Source: Dyadobacter sp. 50-39
GTDB taxonomy: Bacteria; Bacteroidota; Bacteroidia; Cytophagales; Spirosomataceae
Assembly (NCBI GenBank): GCA_001898145.1
Contig: MKSR01000029.1
Span: forward strand, 822,244-886,243
Reading direction: 5' to 3'
Length of the DNA stretch: 64,000 nucleotides
A program made the translations under genes and the position numbers. A model generated the notes under the pieces. It saw only the letters and a program-made list of their open reading frames with translations, made no database searches and had not been told where the DNA came from. The first letter of the stretch is position 1, and each line of letters opens with the position of its first letter. Below, piece after piece: positions 22,152 to 34,941 of this stretch.

Positions 22152-22805
22152 ATGACGTCCAATCAGGAAAAAGCGCCTTACATTGTGGGTATCACCGGCG
22201 GCAGCGCATCGGGAAAGACCTATTTTATGAAAAACCTTATCGATGCATTTGGTAAGGATGAGATTACCCGGATCTCGCAAGACAACTATTATCGTCCGAT
22301 CCATGAAATTCCGCGTGACGAGAATGGCATAGAAAATTTTGATCTGCCCGAAACGATCGATCACCATCTTTTTGCTGAACATATCGCCGTGCTAAGAGCA
22401 GGCCGATCGGTACAGCAAAAGGAATACACGTTCAACAATCCGCTCATCAAACCAGAGATCCTGGTTTTCGAACCCAAGCCGATCATCATTGTCGAAGGCA
22501 TCTTTGTTTTCTATTTCCCTGAAATAGCACGGCTTATCGATTTGAAAATTTTCGTCGATGCCAAGGAACACGTTAAAATAAAACGGCGGATTATTCGTGA
22601 TAATAACGAGCGCGGCTACGACCTCGACGACGTCCTCTATCGCTGGGAACACCACGTCGCCCCGACTTACGATAAATTCATCCTTCCCCTGCGCGCAGAG
22701 GCCGACATGATCATCAATAACAATTCCCGGTTCGACACGGGCTTGCAGGTTCTGATAGGCTTTTTGAAAGGGAAGCTGGAAGAACAATACAAACATTCAT
22801 CCTAA
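22152..22805 (+). CDS. udk: Uridine kinase
   Basis: The 217-residue enzyme phosphorylates uridine and cytidine in pyrimidine salvage. The P-loop GGSASGKT is at residues 16-23 and the family motif SQDNYYRPIHEIP follows near 44-56. DLDDVLYRWEHHVAPTYDKFILP near 156-178 is typical for the uridine kinase branch. It is 24 bases upstream of a lipoprotein gene on the same strand. Confidence 0.9.
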   Translation: MTSNQEKAPYIVGITGGSASGKTYFMKNLIDAFGKDEITRISQDNYYRPIHEIPRDENGIENFDLPETIDHHLFAEHIAVLRAGRSVQQKEYTFNNPLIKPEILVFEPKPIIIVEGIFVFYFPEIARLIDLKIFVDAKEHVKIKRRIIRDNNERGYDLDDVLYRWEHHVAPTYDKFILPLRAEADMIINNNSRFDTGLQVLIGFLKGKLEEQYKHSS

Positions 22806-22828: not shown

Positions 22829-23545
22829 ATGAAGAATTCTTTACACACGATTTGCCGGACTTTCGCTAAACACATCACTATTCTTGCCGTAGCATCTATC
22901 GGTTTATCCGCTTGCGACGACGCGACCGAGCCTGTTGATCCCTATGCATATTATCCGCTCACAATTGGGCATTATGCAGTATACGATGTAAATCAGGAGG
23001 TTTATTCGACCGGGCAGTCGGCGCCGGTTGTCACGAAATGGCAGGAGCGGGACGAAGTAGACAGGATTGCTTCGGATTCGTCCGGGATCGTCACCTACAT
23101 CATCGCAAGATCAACCCGCAATTCGTCAGCGGATTACTGGCAAAAAGTCAAAGAGTATGCCGTGCATAAATATCCCGACAAGCTTCTGACCAATATCGAC
23201 AACCAGCCTTTTCTTTCGCTTACCTTCCCGATCGATTCGCGTACTACCTGGAATGGGAACAGCTACAACAACCAGGACGAACAGGATAGCTACTATGAGC
23301 CGGGAGTGAAATCTGTCAAAATCGGAGAGCAGTCATTTGACAATGTGCTGACGGTTGTTGAGCGCAAAGACACGTCGATCATCAACAGGTATGTGACCAT
23401 CAAGCAATACAGCCCGGGGGTGGGCCTTATTTCCGATGACCAAACCGCCTTTGAACTTTGCCAGAATGACGAGTGCATCGGGTCAGGGAAAGTAGAATCC
23501 GGCATCCACAAGACGCGTAAGATCGTGGAGTTCGGTAACCGGTAA
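22829..23545 (+). CDS. Lipoprotein of unknown function
   Basis: The 238-residue protein has a lipoprotein signal with the lipobox LSAC29 followed by acidic residues. The mature part begins with DPYAYYPLTIGHYAVYDV, like many Bacteroidota lipoproteins whose mature chain starts with a YPL-x-x-G-x-YW[VI]Y motif, and contains many aromatic beta strands. I cannot assign a function. It directly precedes the lasso-peptide locus, with a 136-base gap carrying a separate promoter, so it is probably not part of that locus. Confidence 0.65.
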   Translation: MKNSLHTICRTFAKHITILAVASIGLSACDDATEPVDPYAYYPLTIGHYAVYDVNQEVYSTGQSAPVVTKWQERDEVDRIASDSSGIVTYIIARSTRNSSADYWQKVKEYAVHKYPDKLLTNIDNQPFLSLTFPIDSRTTWNGNSYNNQDEQDSYYEPGVKSVKIGEQSFDNVLTVVERKDTSIINRYVTIKQYSPGVGLISDDQTAFELCQNDECIGSGKVESGIHKTRKIVEFGNR

Positions 23546-23609: not shown

Positions 23610-23640
23610 TTTGCAAATTCAATTTATATTAATAAATTTA
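23610..23640 (+). promoter_or_regulatory. Promoter of the lasso-peptide precursor
   Basis: TTTG (23610-23613), a 19-base spacer and TAAATTTA (23633-23640) match the Bacteroidota consensus TTTG-N19-TAnnTTTG with one mismatch. It lies in an AT-rich stretch and would give a leader of about 35 bases before the ATG at 23682. Confidence 0.65.
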
Positions 23641-23681
23641 CGACGGATACTGGTAATAATCATTCATTCAACCGATAAACA

Positions 23682-23837
23682 ATGAAAACATTGACATCGC
23701 ACTCTACACAGACGAAAAAGTCTTACCGCAAACCGGTCCTCGTTCTTCATGGTGACGTTAGAAAACTCACTAAAGGTAAACTGGGAAGCCTCACCGATTT
23801 GGATCCTTCTGACAACCACTTCTCAACTGAGGGGTAA
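23682..23837 (+). CDS. Lasso-peptide precursor (A protein)
   Basis: The 51-residue peptide has the layout of a lasso-peptide precursor. The leader (1-31) contains the RRE-recognition motif Y15-R-K-P18-V-L20, then HG24-D-V, and the conserved Thr30 at the -2 position. Cleavage after Lys31 would leave a 20-residue core starting at Gly32. In the core GKLGSLTD (32-39), Gly1 and Asp8 can form the usual eight-membered isopeptide ring; the tail (40-51) is LDPSDNHFSTEG with possible plug residues His46 and Phe47. The cyclase gene follows in the same frame after the stop. No database search was done. Too short for most gene callers; confidence rests on the motif set and the cyclase beside it. Confidence 0.8.
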   Translation: MKTLTSHSTQTKKSYRKPVLVLHGDVRKLTKGKLGSLTDLDPSDNHFSTEG

Positions 23838-23867
23838 TCAGGAGTATTTAGGCACGTTGATTTCACG

Positions 23868-25805
23868 TTGGTACTCCAAGGCATTGTTTATTACGATGAA
23901 AGCATCAAAAATCAGATTGCTTTCGACAATAAATACGATAATAAGCTTGCCGGTGCCAACTTTACAGTTTTAGAAGCAGGGTTCGGGAAAAATTCCTTCT
24001 ACTCTTTCTTACTGGGAATTCAAAAGAAAAACCTTTCTGAGCCGGAATGTTTAAGCAATATAAAACTTAAACATTCCGGCTCTTTTTATGCCCGGTTGAA
24101 GACCCTGGATGCATCCGGAGAATCGCTCTCCGTTGGCGCCTGGATCGACGAAACGCAACAAACCACCAGCCTGGCAAGGGACGCATTCAGTCCGGTACCA
24201 CTTTATTATCTCCATATCCCAGGCAAATTTTCCATTTTTTCGTCCAGCTTATCCTCCATCACCGGGCTTGACTTGGTCAGAAAGGATTACCTGGAACCGG
24301 ATTTATTCCAGATCCTTGCACATCTTGACCTGAGAAAGGAACGTGCACTATCCCATTCCAACGGGACTTTTTACGCACACATCAAGTCAGTGCCGCCGGG
24401 TCATATGGTTGAATTGAGCAGTTCGGGGGCAAGCATTCAGCGCTATGTTTCGTTTAATGCATCGAAATGGAGTTCGGTCAGAACAGCCGGCGAGATAGGC
24501 GAAGCACTGTTTGACGTGTTCCGGCAAAGCGTCGACCGATGTTCGCTGGATAGCGGTGGAAAGCCGTTTGCATCACATTTAAGCGGCGGCCTCGATTCAT
24601 CTTCCGTTAGCGCGATGCTAAGGTTCAATAATCCGGATGCCGCTATTCATACCCTTCATAATAAATCCAGATACCCGGATACCGACGAAAGTCACTTTGC
24701 GCAGGCGGTTGCGGCAAAAATCCACTCCGTGCACCATGAAGTGTTTCAATCCGAGGAGGATTTTGAGCTCATCAGGCTGCAAACCTCGCTCTCAGCACAG
24801 CCACTGGCCTCCCGGCTGTCGCCGGCGCTCCTATCTACGATGCTGCTATACGGCAGGGATCTAGGCTGCAAAGTGCTTCTGAACGGCAATGGCGGCGACT
24901 CGATCATTGGTAGTGGTATGGAGATATTCCAGCATGCTTTCGAGACCAAAAACTGGGCGCTCTTGAAAGAAATACTGGCCAAACGGGTACCCTACTTCAA
25001 TGCTGCGCCCTATCCGGGATGGGAGTCGTTCCCGGCAGAAAAGCAGCACTTCCTGGTCAGGCAATTTTACTATTATAACCGCATCACCCGATCCGGACGT
25101 AGTCCTTTGGCGCTTGCGAGAACCTACGCCGAACTCGCCAAAAACCTGGATTTATCGCATACGTACATGATGAGGCGCGGTATCACAAGCCTGCTCAACA
25201 GGCGAAATAAGCCCAATGTGCATGGGCAAGTGAACCTCGCGAACAACGAACTGCTGGAATTAACAGATACCGGACCCCAGTTTTCTACCACGCGTTCACT
25301 TCTAGGCGAGCTCGATCCGATACAATTTGGAGCGCTATTTGACGACGTATTCAGTCCAATGGTAAGCTGGTCTACCGAAAACCTTTTCGATCTTGGAAAC
25401 CACTACGGCATCAGCAGCAGATCACCTATGAAGGACAAGGCATTGTTCGAACTATGCATGTCTGTTCCGGATTTGATCAAATATGGAGAAGGAAGGGGAC
25501 GCGAGCATTTCAGGATGGCCATGAAGCGTTTGCTTCCCCATGAAGTTTACAACCGCACGAGCAAAGCCACACTATCTTCACAATATGGGCAGGAAATGAC
25601 ATCCAGGCTCTGGAACCAGGCTAAGGAATCTGTAATGGATTCTTCACGGCTTTGGGACTTTGTTGACCGGGCAAAGCTCCTGCATGAAGTAAGCATCCTC
25701 AACAATCCTCATGTAGCCTATTCCCAGAAAACAAAGACCTGGCTGCATATAACCCGGGCTATTACCCTGTCGTGCTGGCTCGACTGGCTATCCGGAAACA
25801 AATAG
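23868..25805 (+). CDS. Asparagine-synthetase-like lasso-peptide cyclase (C protein)
   Basis: The protein is up to 645 residues. The N-terminal amidotransferase-like part is recognisable at about 88-135 (VGAWID, LARDAFSPVPLYY) and 165-185 (FYAHIKSVPPGHMVEL). The adenylating domain has SGGLDSSS at 239-246, the ATP PP-loop, and a second NGNGGDSIIG motif near 340-349. Family members form the isopeptide bond between the core N-terminus and Asp or Glu. The only start in frame is TTG at 23868 (another TTG is at 24096); the first in-frame ATG is at codon 180, too late. The first 70 residues are shorter and less like the family, and a strong hairpin lies inside them. No Cys2 nucleophile is present, as is usual for cyclases. 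Confidence 0.75.
   Translation: MVLQGIVYYDESIKNQIAFDNKYDNKLAGANFTVLEAGFGKNSFYSFLLGIQKKNLSEPECLSNIKLKHSGSFYARLKTLDASGESLSVGAWIDETQQTTSLARDAFSPVPLYYLHIPGKFSIFSSSLSSITGLDLVRKDYLEPDLFQILAHLDLRKERALSHSNGTFYAHIKSVPPGHMVELSSSGASIQRYVSFNASKWSSVRTAGEIGEALFDVFRQSVDRCSLDSGGKPFASHLSGGLDSSSVSAMLRFNNPDAAIHTLHNKSRYPDTDESHFAQAVAAKIHSVHHEVFQSEEDFELIRLQTSLSAQPLASRLSPALLSTMLLYGRDLGCKVLLNGNGGDSIIGSGMEIFQHAFETKNWALLKEILAKRVPYFNAAPYPGWESFPAEKQHFLVRQFYYYNRITRSGRSPLALARTYAELAKNLDLSHTYMMRRGITSLLNRRNKPNVHGQVNLANNELLELTDTGPQFSTTRSLLGELDPIQFGALFDDVFSPMVSWSTENLFDLGNHYGISSRSPMKDKALFELCMSVPDLIKYGEGRGREHFRMAMKRLLPHEVYNRTSKATLSSQYGQEMTSRLWNQAKESVMDSSRLWDFVDRAKLLHEVSILNNPHVAYSQKTKTWLHITRAITLSCWLDWLSGNK
24039..24087 (+). terminator. 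17-bp hairpin plus T5 near the 5' end of the cyclase frame (attenuator candidate)
   Basis: The perfect stem GAGCCGGAATGTTTAAG (24039-24055) with CTTAAACATTCCGGCTC (24066-24082) encloses a ten-base loop and is followed by five T. It has the form of a Rho-independent terminator, 201 bases after the precursor stop and about 170 bases inside the longest cyclase frame. It may reduce cyclase expression relative to the precursor, or show that the cyclase starts further downstream. Confidence 0.7.
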
Positions 25806-29247: not shown

Positions 29248-32205
29248 CTATTTCTTGAAAATCTTGCGCTGATATACGTCACCATTTTCAGTAGAAACCT
29301 TGATGATGTATTCGCCCGAAGGAAGGTTTTCAAGATTAACCTTTGTTCCCTTGCCACCTCTCTGATAGAATCTTGCTTTCTGATCCATAATGTCCCAGCT
29401 CTTGATTTTGGTCGGTACATTCAATTTCAGATCGACCTTGTCGGTAGCAGGGTTCGGCCAAACCACCAGGGCAGACGTACCTTCTCTCGTAACGGACACC
29501 ATTCTGGAATAGGTAATTTCCCCCGCCATTGTCTGGCCGTCTACCGTAGTGGCACGGTCCACTTGTTTCAGACGGTAGTAGCTGGTTCCCGCAATCGGGC
29601 TCAGATCTGTGAATTGATAGGAAGTCGACACGTCGCTATCGCCTTTTCCTTCCACCGTACCGATTTCTTCGAAATTCTTGGCATTGTAGCTTCTTTCAAT
29701 TACAAAGTGGCTGTTGTTCCTTTCAGAGGCTGTAACCCAGGTTACATTCACCTTCTCGCTTCCTGCTGCTTTGGCATCAAACGATACCAGGCTCACTGGC
29801 AAAGCACCTTCCGTCACCAGAATGCGCAATGCCGGGTCTCCCTGAAGAATGACCTGGTGAACATTGGCCCGGTCTGCATTGTAGTATGACAACACCCTTC
29901 CGTTTTCGGCAGGATTATACGTATATCCCAATTGTTTGGTTTCCGCCGCCACGTCGCGCAGGATCTGCCCGATCGTGCCGCGGTTCTGGTCGTTCTGCCC
30001 GAAGATTTTCGGATACAAACGATCCAGATATTCATTGGATGTGGAAGCATAGGCATCCCAGTCATTCCCGAATACTACAATTGCACCGGCGTTCGGAGCA
30101 AGCAGCCAGTCGAGTGACAGCGGTCTTTTTCCGGACGAAGTAGGATAGTTAGGCGGTACTACCCCGCTGAATGGGGAGAACCTGTTGCTGTAAATGTTAT
30201 TCACGCCGCAACCATTATAAAACAGCACCGGATATTTGCCCGCATTCGCATAGCCCTTGGTGCCGTCTGTCGCATAGCCGAAATCATAATCCGTTACATC
30301 CACGTTTCCGTGACCGAAATAGGTGATCATACCCGCTCCTACTCCGTTCAGTTCGCTAGAAAGTGTTGTCAGGACGTTTCCGGAGCTAACCGGCGTTTTC
30401 TTTCTCTGGATCGTATCTCCCAGGAACGGCGCTGCGAAAATGGGCCCGCTGATGTCCGATAGGTATTTGGCGAACTGGTTAATTTCATCAGAGGATTTTC
30501 CTCCATTGATGTGTATCACGTTCTTTCTCCAAGCCAGGTCTTTCTGTCCCTCGTAAGTTTTAACCTTTGCCAGGTAGTCTTTAACCTGCTGGTTTGTAAT
30601 CGCCGAGATCCTCCCGACCGGAATGACAGGAACATCGTCCAATGCGCCGCCAAGGCCATCGGCAAGCAGCATATCAGACCCCGGGAAACCGATTGTAGGT
30701 ATTTCGTCCGGGATCTCGCGCACACTGCGCTCGTAGTAGGTGACCGATCGTCCAAGTAATAACAGGAATTTGTCCGTGTTGCTGTCGGAGACCATGTAGT
30801 CAACAAACCTTCTGATGGCAACAGCGCTGGGCTCACCGTAGTTGAACTGGTTGTAAATATCCTTAATCCGCTTCACCAGTGGCTTATACTTCTTGCCCGG
30901 CGATTCAGTTTGACGGTAAGTAGCATATTCATTCGCTGAGGACCACAATGTGTCCGAGGTAATGATCAGATAATCGAATGCGGATGGTGTAATCTGCTGG
31001 AATGTAACAGCCGTAGCCGTGGCAGGCAGCACCTCGGTGCCAACGAAGAGTTTCATCGCATTGCCGTTTCTTGAAACCATCATGTCAGCCGCTGAGCCGT
31101 TGATAATCCTCGGATTGCGGAAATTCGACACGTCAAGGAAACGCAACGGAGCCTCCGGGGTTACAGCTGGTGTATTCTGGATCGTGAAACGTGTATTGCC
31201 CCCCGCCGCCGGAAAGTTAAATTCGTAGGAAACCGCTCCCTGCATGTCGATGTTCTGGTCGTAAGTGACGGTATAGTAGGAAACCGAAAAGCCGTCTGTC
31301 CCTCCACCGGTCGACTTGAAGCCCAGCACACCTGCCCCGTTTGCATAGTCGGTACTAAGCAGATCGAACGGGTAATCAGTATCCAGAAAGCCCGTGACGA
31401 CCGTGTTACCCACTACCCGTTGTGAGGCTGCATCTTTACCCACGTTCACTTCTACCGTCGATTGGGCGGAGAATGCATATCCCCTGCCTTTCAGGTGCAC
31501 GTTCACAGCCGGAGCGGCCGATCCGTATTTCGACTTGATCTGAAATGCAAATGGCTCCTCCACATAACTGTTTGTAAAAACGTTCGGTTTGGCATTAGTG
31601 GTTCGCAGCGCCTGGTTATTCGAGATCCGGGTACCGGTTCCGGCCTTACCTTCCTCAAAGTAGCTGTTCAGGGTAGCCGGGCGTGAAGGATAAGAAGTCA
31701 TGTGCGAATTCTCGATCACGAACCTCTTCAAAAACGTGAATTTATGAAACTCCTGCTTGGCGAGTCCCTGATCGGGTGCAAGCGATTCCGTGGCGGCTAC
31801 CGGCCTGGGATTAGAATCAAATGTTAAAAAGTAGGTACTTTGATCGGAATAAATACTGAAATAAGGGTTTTTTCTCGTCGTAGGCAGCCGGTAGAGCAGC
31901 GCATCGGAAGAGCCGTCGTTGGGCACACCATAAAATTCGATTTCGGTATTGGAAGCGCTTACCAGGGTTACCTCTTCCCCGCGGTGGTAAAGGTGAAGGA
32001 AGTTCGGTTTATTCTTGAAAGCGTCCGGTAAGGTCACCTTGTACAGCCCGGCCTTGGATACATGGATCTTCACCCATGTCTGGCCATACTTTCCATTCAA
32101 CCATTCATTTCCATATTTCCCACTCCATGGCGATTGCGCAAATCCTTGTTGAATAAGTAGTGAGATAGCAATGAAAAAGAGAGTAGTAAACCTTTTTGTG
32201 TTCAT
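29248..32205 (-). CDS. C25 gingipain-family protease with T9SS sorting domain (second PorU2-like paralogue)
   Basis: The 985-residue exported protein shares its overall layout with the gene downstream: signal peptide to about 23, N-terminal beta domain, C25 domain at about 400-770 with His in YFGHGN near 633 and Cys in YNGCGVNN near 667, and a C-terminal sorting domain (VWPNPATDKVDLKL near 907-920, final GEYIIKVSTENG). A conserved segment IKDIYNQFNYGEPS appears in both paralogues. Unlike its neighbour it has a fibronectin-like segment (SLVSFDAKAAGSEKVNVTWV) before the sorting domain. Two different sortase-like proteases in tandem may process different cargo (inference). Confidence 0.75.
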   Translation of the reverse strand: MNTKRFTTLFFIAISLLIQQGFAQSPWSGKYGNEWLNGKYGQTWVKIHVSKAGLYKVTLPDAFKNKPNFLHLYHRGEEVTLVSASNTEIEFYGVPNDGSSDALLYRLPTTRKNPYFSIYSDQSTYFLTFDSNPRPVAATESLAPDQGLAKQEFHKFTFLKRFVIENSHMTSYPSRPATLNSYFEEGKAGTGTRISNNQALRTTNAKPNVFTNSYVEEPFAFQIKSKYGSAAPAVNVHLKGRGYAFSAQSTVEVNVGKDAASQRVVGNTVVTGFLDTDYPFDLLSTDYANGAGVLGFKSTGGGTDGFSVSYYTVTYDQNIDMQGAVSYEFNFPAAGGNTRFTIQNTPAVTPEAPLRFLDVSNFRNPRIINGSAADMMVSRNGNAMKLFVGTEVLPATATAVTFQQITPSAFDYLIITSDTLWSSANEYATYRQTESPGKKYKPLVKRIKDIYNQFNYGEPSAVAIRRFVDYMVSDSNTDKFLLLLGRSVTYYERSVREIPDEIPTIGFPGSDMLLADGLGGALDDVPVIPVGRISAITNQQVKDYLAKVKTYEGQKDLAWRKNVIHINGGKSSDEINQFAKYLSDISGPIFAAPFLGDTIQRKKTPVSSGNVLTTLSSELNGVGAGMITYFGHGNVDVTDYDFGYATDGTKGYANAGKYPVLFYNGCGVNNIYSNRFSPFSGVVPPNYPTSSGKRPLSLDWLLAPNAGAIVVFGNDWDAYASTSNEYLDRLYPKIFGQNDQNRGTIGQILRDVAAETKQLGYTYNPAENGRVLSYYNADRANVHQVILQGDPALRILVTEGALPVSLVSFDAKAAGSEKVNVTWVTASERNNSHFVIERSYNAKNFEEIGTVEGKGDSDVSTSYQFTDLSPIAGTSYYRLKQVDRATTVDGQTMAGEITYSRMVSVTREGTSALVVWPNPATDKVDLKLNVPTKIKSWDIMDQKARFYQRGGKGTKVNLENLPSGEYIIKVSTENGDVYQRKIFKK

Positions 32206-32589: not shown

Positions 32590-33180
32590 ATGATTAGAAG
32601 GCTGACTTTTATCGCTTGGATAGCATTTATCGGTCTGGTAACAAGTTGCGACGGTGATAAGGGCGACGTTGGTCCGGCAGGACCCGCAGGGCCCAAAGGA
32701 GAAACAGGAGCCCCCGGCAAGGACGGAGCAGATGGTGAGGATGGCAAAGACGGCGTAGGCGCGAAAGAGATTGTTGCAACTATGGTGAAAAGCACCAACG
32801 GAGGATATACACTGGGTAAGGCAAATCTGACTTCTGCGGATACTGCCATGATTTCCAAGAGTGTAGTAGTTGTTTTCATCAAGAGCCAGGGATTGTGGTG
32901 GTCTCAGCCAGGCATCGTGCGTTTCGCCGACAACAAATGGACGAATTTCACTTTCGTGACCCTTTTGAGAAATACCACATTCTTCGTCGACATCCGGCCT
33001 ATGTCCTGGTCAGAACAACAGGAAGCAGCTCCTGAGCGTGAATTTGAAGCCATTCGTGCGGTGATTATTCCAGCCGAAAAATTAAGACTCAACGCCGAAG
33101 TCGATATGACCAACTACGAGGAAGTTGTAGCGGCATTCGACATCAAAGAATCAGACATTTTGCAAGCCGACGTAAAGTAG
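32590..33180 (+). CDS. Lipoprotein with short collagen-like Gly-X-Y region
   Basis: The 196-residue protein has a lipoprotein signal with lipobox LVTSC20, then about 13 Gly-X-Y triplets (residues 22-57, for example GPAGPAGPKGETG, GKDGADGEDGKDG), and a compact domain of about 135 residues with KSTNGGYTLGKANL and WSQPGIVRFADNKWTNFTF. Collagen-like repeats form trimers in bacterial surface proteins and stalks. The C-terminal domain is not known to me. It stands alone between divergent PorU2-like genes and mqo, with its own terminator. Confidence 0.7.
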   Translation: MIRRLTFIAWIAFIGLVTSCDGDKGDVGPAGPAGPKGETGAPGKDGADGEDGKDGVGAKEIVATMVKSTNGGYTLGKANLTSADTAMISKSVVVVFIKSQGLWWSQPGIVRFADNKWTNFTFVTLLRNTTFFVDIRPMSWSEQQEAAPEREFEAIRAVIIPAEKLRLNAEVDMTNYEEVVAAFDIKESDILQADVK

Positions 33181-33226: not shown

Positions 33227-33414
33227 TTTCTCCCCACCACTTTTGCAACATAGAAAGTTTTAATTGCCCCCTGCCAAGAAGTTGCAAAACGCCATAACTT
33301 TTATTTTTGAAATTATACTATTTTCGAAACAAATATTGTTAGGACGATTGTTATCTAGCAGTGATTTGTACTTTTCCGGGCTAAGGCCTTCTTACCATAT
33401 TTCTTTTTTTCGTG

Positions 33415-34941
33415 ATGAATACCAAAAAGTCTTCAAAAACGAGCTCACCTGACGTGGTTTTGATTGGGGCAGGCATTATGAGCGCTACGCTCGGGGTTCT
33501 ACTGAAAAAGCTTAATCCTTCCATTACCATTTCCGTATTCGAGCGCCTCGATCGCGTGACTGCGGAGAGCTCAGATCCGTGGAACAACGCCGGTACAGGC
33601 CATTCCGCTTTCTGCGAATTGAACTACACCCCTCAGCTGGCTGACGGTTCGGTCGAAACAAAAAAGGCCATCAAAATTGCCGAGTCTTTCGAAGTATCGA
33701 AGGAGTTTTGGGCATATCTGGTCGAAAATGGCGTAATAGAGTCACCTGACGCATTTATCCACAATATTCCCCATTTAAGCTTTGTTTGGGGTGAGGAAAA
33801 CGTGGATTATCTCCGCAAACGCTACACCGCGCTCACGAGCCATCATTTGTTCGACGGTATGGAATACACCGAAGACAAAGAAACGATCGAAAGCTGGATC
33901 CCGCTGGTAATGCACGGCCGTAATGCCGACGAAAAAGTGGCAGCTACACGCATGCAGCTCGGCACCGACGTCAATTTCGGTGCACTGACGAAAGCGATGT
34001 TCGCCTACCTCGAAAAACAGGACGGCGTTAATCTTTTTCTCAACTACGAAGTCGACGACATTACCCGCAGAAGGGATGGCTCATGGCTGATCGAGGTGAC
34101 GGACCGTGCGACTAAAAAGGAAAGTAAGTTTAACACCACATTCGTATTCATCGGTGCAGGCGGCGGTTCGTTGCCTTTGCTCGAAAAATCGAATATTCCC
34201 GAAGGCAAAGGTTTCGGCGGCTTCCCTGTGAGCGGCCAGTGGCTGGTTTGCAACAAGCCTGAAATTATTGAAAAACACCAGGCGAAAGTATACGGAAAAG
34301 CCTCGGTAGGATCTCCGCCGATGTCGGTACCTCACCTGGATACCCGCATTATCGATGGCAAAAAGGCATTGCTTTTCGGGCCATACGCCGGGTTCTCGAC
34401 CAAGTTTTTGAAAAACGGTTCATATCTGGACCTTCCGCTTTCCATTAAGCTGAACAATATCAAACCCATGCTGGCGGCCGGATTGCACAACATTCCGCTG
34501 ACCAAATATCTGATCGACCAGGTTAGACAATCGCCGCAAGACCGTCTTGAAGCACTTAAGGATTACTTCCCAGAAGCAAAACTGGAAGACTGGGATCTTG
34601 AAACAGCCGGTCAGCGAGTTCAGGTGATCAAGAAAGATAAGAAAGCGGGCGGTGTCCTGGAATTCGGTACCGAAATGGTCACCGCTGCCGATGGCTCACT
34701 GGCTGCATTGCTAGGCGCTTCTCCGGGAGCTTCTACGGCGGTTTCCATCATGCTGGAACTGATTCACAGATGTTTTAGCGAGGCCAAGACCCCTGAATGG
34801 CAGCGTGAATTCAAGAAGATCATCCCGTCTTTCGGCAAATCGCTTGCCAAAGAAAAGGACCTGGCCGCGAAAACCCGCGCCTGGACTACCGAGGTGTTGC
34901 ATTTAAGCGCCCCGCACCTGGAAGAAGAGGTACCTGCCTGA
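33415..34941 (+). CDS. mqo: Malate:quinone oxidoreductase
   Basis: The 508-residue FAD enzyme oxidises malate to oxaloacetate and passes electrons to quinone at the membrane face, a step of the TCA cycle. The N-terminal FAD motif VLIGAGIMSATLGVLLKKL is near 15-33. The strings NNAGTGHSAFCELNYTP near 59-75 and FGPYAGFSTKFLKNGS near 322-337 are family-specific, as is LGASPGASTAVSIML near 434-448. Length is normal. The ATG at 33415 is preferred over the GTG three bases earlier. It ends at a perfect palindromic terminator. Confidence 0.95.
   Translation: MNTKKSSKTSSPDVVLIGAGIMSATLGVLLKKLNPSITISVFERLDRVTAESSDPWNNAGTGHSAFCELNYTPQLADGSVETKKAIKIAESFEVSKEFWAYLVENGVIESPDAFIHNIPHLSFVWGEENVDYLRKRYTALTSHHLFDGMEYTEDKETIESWIPLVMHGRNADEKVAATRMQLGTDVNFGALTKAMFAYLEKQDGVNLFLNYEVDDITRRRDGSWLIEVTDRATKKESKFNTTFVFIGAGGGSLPLLEKSNIPEGKGFGGFPVSGQWLVCNKPEIIEKHQAKVYGKASVGSPPMSVPHLDTRIIDGKKALLFGPYAGFSTKFLKNGSYLDLPLSIKLNNIKPMLAAGLHNIPLTKYLIDQVRQSPQDRLEALKDYFPEAKLEDWDLETAGQRVQVIKKDKKAGGVLEFGTEMVTAADGSLAALLGASPGASTAVSIMLELIHRCFSEAKTPEWQREFKKIIPSFGKSLAKEKDLAAKTRAWTTEVLHLSAPHLEEEVPA

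Follow-up and report, generated by a model that had tools for sequence, protein, structure and literature searches.

We analysed a window of 64,000 nucleotides from Dyadobacter sp. 50-39 (C29:822244-886243 of the 7.72 Mb assembly), in which a short lasso precursor gene (A) and an adjoining cyclase gene (C) lie in a variable island between two conserved border genes. The features of the locus were as follows.

22152..22805, + strand: udk (name taken from the initial annotation), the conserved left border of the island
22829..23545, + strand: lipoprotein, of a family also found beside lasso cyclases outside Dyadobacter
23610..23640, + strand: promoter-like site TTTG-N19-TAAATTTA ahead of A, which we take to resemble the Bacteroidota promoter consensus
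23637..23655, + strand: 5' element TTTACGACGGATACTGGTA, ahead of A and directly after the promoter-like site
23682..23837, + strand: lasso precursor A, 51 aa, with a leader of residues 1-31 and a predicted 20-residue core with a Gly1-Asp8 ring
23868..25805, + strand: lasso cyclase C, asparagine-synthetase-like, 645 aa, TTG start, matching Asn_synthase and NF033535
25859..29209, - strand: C25a, peptidase C25, PorU2-like (NF052324 853.5 bits, cut-off 450), His621 and Cys655 conserved
29248..32205, - strand: C25b, second C25/PorU2-like gene (NF052324 588.2 bits), His632 and Cys666 conserved; the protein carries a type IX secretion tail
32590..33180, + strand: collagen-like lipoprotein (name assigned by eye) at the right-hand end of the variable island
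33412..34941, + strand: presumably an mqo-like gene, the conserved right border of the island

Precursor A carries YRKPVL, Thr at position -2, Gly1 and Asp8, just as the initial annotation had read it, and so combines a YxxP leader with Thr(-2), Gly1 and an acidic residue within positions 7-9. It matched the NCBIfam model lasso_leader_L3 (NF033521) with an E value of 9.9e-6 and 25.3 bits, over the cut-off of 19. Precursor matches, 55 altogether, were found in all 48 Dyadobacter genomes and mostly at one conserved place, indicating that the precursor-cyclase locus is more than chance. When the places were compared by eye, 54 of the 55 lay near a cyclase match. For the precursor match G004:C11:1048288-1048440, no cyclase match was listed on the same contig.

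The motif counts covered 51 precursors, with four of the 55 matches left out. YxxP and Thr were present in all 51, which is expected since this motif was used to find them. In the register fixed by Thr(-2), Gly1 was present in 41 precursors and absent in 10; position 8 was acidic in 41, and 10 had no acid. The conservation in relatives on which the initial annotation had staked its reading was thus found. The sequences after Thr were variable, with 46 distinct ones among the 51 precursors. Between three close Dyadobacter species, the leader showed no amino-acid change (pN 0.00), and the pN of the core was 0.18-0.21. A stop lay inside the match of one precursor (G032), possibly a pseudogene in a single species; the other 47 of the 48 main precursors had no stops.

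By its profile scores, the adjoining gene is likewise the asparagine-synthetase-like macrolactam cyclase that had been proposed. It scored 113.9 bits against Pfam Asn_synthase, and its best NCBIfam match was the lasso cyclase model NF033535, although the 166 bits remained below the curated cut-off of 525. The score against the asparagine synthase model asn_synth_AEB was 112 bits, below the cut-off of 267. Asparagine synthetase B has a glutaminase domain with an N-terminal catalytic Cys2. The window cyclase starts with MVLQG, and the consensus of 30 aligned relatives has no Cys2; the residues of the SGGLDSSS (nucleotide) loop were invariant or nearly so in the cyclase and these relatives. The window cyclase was the only Asn_synthase gene over the cut-off in the whole genome. 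A search of solved structures with the single cyclase sequence gave no match, and a search with the cyclase profile led to asparagine synthetase and beta-lactam synthetase. Among the 48 main Dyadobacter cyclases, 44 had no stops; one search reported stops within the match of the other four (G022, G036, G008, and G014), where the single-sequence search reported none, and these are possibly pseudogenes in single species.

The initial annotation found no B protein beside A and C and named supply in trans as one explanation. Whole-genome profile searches revealed one B2 peptidase (PF13471) over the cut-off, at C29:241153-241476, and one PqqD-type RRE (B1) over the cut-off of PF05402, a model that RREs beyond its detection would escape. 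B1 adjoins B2 at about C29:241.1-241.9 kb, approximately 605 kb from the cyclase and outside the window. The genome therefore holds both an RRE and a transglutaminase-like peptidase, though not beside A and C. B2 scored 88.7 bits against NCBIfam lasso_biosyn_B2 (cut-off 33). The NCBIfam model nearest to B1 was lasso PqqD, below its cut-off, and B1 matched the solved lasso RRE TbiB1 (4.1e-10); the single B2 sequence had no match among solved structures. Cys85 and His119 of B2 were kept in all 48 Dyadobacter genomes. The triad is usually expected to include Asp, but this position was not conserved in Dyadobacter and is Arg in the window species. B1 and B2 are followed by an HprK-like gene (K) with weak matches and then an NTP_transf_5 gene (N). 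Scores against the models of the HPr-rel-A system (TIGR04352/04353) fell below the cut-offs, at 35.2 versus 200 bits for HprK_rel_A and 24.9 versus 35 for the other.

The same separation was found throughout the genus. Both the cyclase and B2 were present in all 48 Dyadobacter genomes searched and never within 20 kb of each other: in 20 genomes they lay on one contig at least 559 kb apart, and in 28 on different contigs. The usual, though not essential, clustering of B proteins with A and C in lasso systems was thus not seen in Dyadobacter. B1 in the relatives was looked for at the B loci and the cyclase loci. Matches to B1, B2, K, and N occurred together at all 48 B loci, with N often seen in part because 23 of these loci were only 3.3 kb long; ALDH was found at 44 of them and FtsH at all 25 longer ones. 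The B loci contained no cyclase or precursor match. We also considered that B might be hidden near the island, but a tblastn search (E 0.01) detected none of B1, B2, K, and N in 52 cyclase loci of other Dyadobacter, each 8-17 kb long. Each Dyadobacter genome had one B2 over 60 bits (G026 had a second at 26.9 bits), and one genome with three A-C pairs (G004) had one B2. Because the single B1-B2 pair lies far from the window and the cyclase and B2 are apart in every Dyadobacter genome, these results support supply in trans. Between the three closest species, dN/dS ranged over 0.06-0.09 (cyclase), 0.02-0.08 (B1), 0.06-0.09 (B2), and 0.07-0.12 (K); most dS values were close to saturation.

A pattern similar to the promoter-like site lay no more than 160 bases ahead of 44 of the 51 precursor genes, a raw count with no chance control. 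The CGGATACTGGTA part of the 5' element was exact in 16 of the 48 main Dyadobacter loci when compared upstream of A (L073-L104). The full element had one exact match in the genome and no other under three mismatches; at three mismatches, there were 22 genome matches versus 14 for a control pattern, so no regulon was found. The element was absent upstream of B1, and a shared regulon of the A and B loci through it was rejected.

With some exceptions, the main Dyadobacter cyclase was flanked by udk and the lipoprotein and by the two C25 genes. The lipoprotein was missing in G020, G024, G036, and G045, the last of which ends at a contig edge, and udk was missing in G008 and G024. Of the 20 relatives read, 7 had no match to the collagen-like lipoprotein, and C25b varied; mqo showed 91-95% identity across the ten close relatives that were inspected. 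Scoring over 450 bits against NF052324 and retaining the conserved His and Cys, C25a and C25b are PorU2-like proteins and putative type IX sortases. Because A and C form part of a larger island that also holds two C25 proteases, the label "minimal" of the initial annotation is misleading, and its range omitted connected genes on both sides, whereas the A-C pair without B stood.

Pairwise distances were compared in 31 of the 48 genomes, those with short or missing genes being dropped. The distance correlations were 0.91 for the cyclase and C25a, 0.86 for the cyclase and C25b, and 0.92 for C25a and C25b, but just 0.44-0.51 for the cyclase and o655, o608, or udk. After removal of the species distance, the cyclase still correlated with C25a (0.89) and C25b (0.81; Mantel p 0.0005). 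Weaker residual ties to the cyclase, all passing p 0.05, were found for the lipoprotein (0.37), B1 (0.26), K (0.14), and B2 (0.12). The distance correlation of B2 with o655 was 0.87.

Trees were built for 37 of the 48 genomes, again dropping those with short or missing genes. The left-flank tree held ten species together with a support of 100. The cyclase and C25 trees split these ten species into the same allele groups, although their deeper branching partly differed. In the B tree, nine of the ten species stayed together, and G037 lay outside on a long branch. AU tests, for which the allele classes were named after the trees and distances had been seen, rejected the ten-species clade for the cyclase (3e-6) and C25 (2e-61), and rejected allele classes II and III for the left flank (0.0029 and 1.6e-70, respectively). 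For the B locus, class II was rejected (1e-8), and the species clade was borderline (p 0.057). The A-C pair and the two C25 genes behave as an island of alleles that pass between species, and B1-B2-K largely follows the species.

Outside Dyadobacter, 174 of the 222 genomes surveyed were available for comparison. With a cyclase threshold of 180 bits, 20 weaker matches were dropped, and nine genomes with only such matches are thus outside the cyclase count. The cyclase and B2 were both present in 52 genomes, the cyclase only in 2 (80% and 83% complete), B2 only in 14, and neither in 106. In 27 of the 52 genomes with both, the two genes were linked within 20 kb. In view of the 14 genomes with B2 but no cyclase, other peptides may also be substrates of the B hub. 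B1 and K adjoin the cyclase in three Spirosoma loci (L166, L168, and L172) and in a locus of group g33, presumably also Spirosoma (L231). No match to the Dyadobacter B2 profile was found at these four loci, and the B2 matches of the genome of L231 (G203) lay far from the cyclase locus; in these four as well, the peptidase may be supplied in trans.

Among 26 hand-chosen non-Dyadobacter cyclase loci (24 of 79 named loci plus L228 and L231), the lipoprotein was found in 19 and a C25a match over 780 bits in 20, in differing gene orders. Within 12 kb of 70 non-Dyadobacter cyclases, the lipoprotein occurred at no fewer than 44, a PorU2-like gene at no fewer than 39, and both at no fewer than 38. Both families were also found in genomes without lasso genes, and neither C25a nor the lipoprotein was found in the 17 kb around four extra Dyadobacter A-C pairs (L088, L097, L121, and L123). 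The lipoprotein and the PorU2-like proteins therefore seem to be accessories and not enzymes of the biosynthesis. Permease genes of the FtsX/MacB-like type, possible exporters, lay near L097 and L121 (Pfam) and, by eye, near L088 and L123 likewise.

The above searches establish the arrangement, conservation, and selection pattern of a two-site system. We consider it highly probable that this is a two-site lasso pathway, in which a fixed maturase hub works with exchangeable precursor-cyclase alleles. The window carries the genes of the precursor and the macrolactam cyclase, and B1 and B2, encoded at the distant site, would act in trans. By analogy with known lasso families, B1 would bind the YxxPxL leader through its RRE, the cysteine peptidase B2 would cut it off behind Thr(-2)-Lys(-1), and the cyclase would activate Asp8 with ATP and join it to Gly1, whereupon the peptide would thread into a knot. 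The B hub keeps its place through the genus, and the A-C pair with its two C25 genes behaves as if swapped as an island. A more far-reaching and tentative idea, somewhat unlikely in its entirety, is that one promiscuous B1-B2-K-N hub serves any island allele, and that matched C25/PorU2 proteins and lipoproteins act on the peptide at the surface, by handling, displaying, or neutralising it, so that the island would be a swappable, bacteriocin-like locus for strain recognition or competition.

How far the C25 proteases belong to this pathway is a separate matter. Their tree agreement with the cyclase could quite conceivably reflect linkage and fast evolution, with protease and peptide functionally unrelated. 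Genes that lie side by side share recombination tracts, the island genes evolve fast (mean p-distance 0.51-0.65), and the extra A-C pairs without C25a, together with the PorU2-like and lipoprotein genes in genomes without lasso genes, are in agreement with this explanation. However, the lipoprotein and PorU2 homologues adjoin non-Dyadobacter cyclases in differing gene orders, and this recurrent company suggests that lasso peptides are connected with type IX secretion. In the literature collection searched, no paper joined the two, and a search for lasso peptides with Dyadobacter or Spirosoma gave a single paper, which dealt with another RiPP.

A further explanation is that another protease, such as the C25 of the island, removes the leader, and that the distant B1-B2-K-N genes work on something else. 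The C25 genes are co-inherited with the cyclase, and B2 occurs alone in the 14 genomes mentioned above. Lasso maturation is cytoplasmic, whereas the PorU2-like C25a is predicted to be outside the cytoplasm. Moreover, the four extra A-C pairs do without C25a, the YxxP leader calls for an RRE and just one PqqD gene exceeded the cut-off, and only 2 of the 54 cyclase-bearing non-Dyadobacter genomes had no B2. We thus regard this explanation as unnecessary and very unlikely. It is equally improbable that the ring is closed but the peptide is unthreaded or forms a different macrocycle: the cores are variable and carry no obvious steric lock, and Gly1 is missing from 10 of the 51, but the lasso-type leader, cyclase, RRE, and peptidase are all present. 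Hardly credible at all is the idea that A and C are the remains of a lasso cluster in decay after the loss of B, which the initial annotation had listed and to which the missing neighbouring B and the stops in single relatives might point, since A and C match in all 48 Dyadobacter genomes, nearly all without stops, and the low dN/dS (0.02-0.12) and the unchanged leader in three species reject it for the window genome.

The two-site pathway has partial counterparts among known systems. Paeninodin-like systems, according to PMC13381572, comprise a discrete RRE, a separate leader peptidase, an HprK-like kinase, and an NTP transferase. The window system shares all of these and the YxxP leader, but its genes lie at two sites and its kinase match is weak. 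Paeninodin is phosphorylated at a C-terminal Ser; in contrast, most Dyadobacter cores end in another residue, even though an HprK-like gene is present. An unclustered lanthipeptide protease lies 550,898 bp from its precursor, according to PMC8960859; it, too, is a RiPP maturation protease whose gene is distant from that of its substrate. The peptide class and protease are different, however, and in Dyadobacter the leader-binding protein is also remote and the split extends through all 48 genomes of the genus. Such loci may be overlooked or thrown out by genome mining that relies on finding B next to A and C. The genus-wide two-site system also offers a natural test of one RRE and peptidase serving different precursor-cyclase alleles, and their reach bears on the engineering of lasso libraries.

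The linked clusters of Spirosoma and other relatives contain the homologous cyclase, lipoprotein, PorU2-like C25a, K, B2, B1, and precursor, all in one locus (for example, L161 and L169). Unlike in Dyadobacter, the B genes there adjoin the cyclase, the precursor adjoins a type IX secreted protein, and the core register differs. This secreted neighbour, 342-410 aa long, was seen at L161, L171, L178, and L165 and was Ice_binding-like in two of the four tested. In the Spirosoma-type precursors (L161, L164, L169, L170, L173, L174, and L231), the distance from Thr to a conserved Gly-Ser is shorter by one residue; when an 8-residue ring is assumed, Thr falls at position -1 and residue 1 is not Gly.
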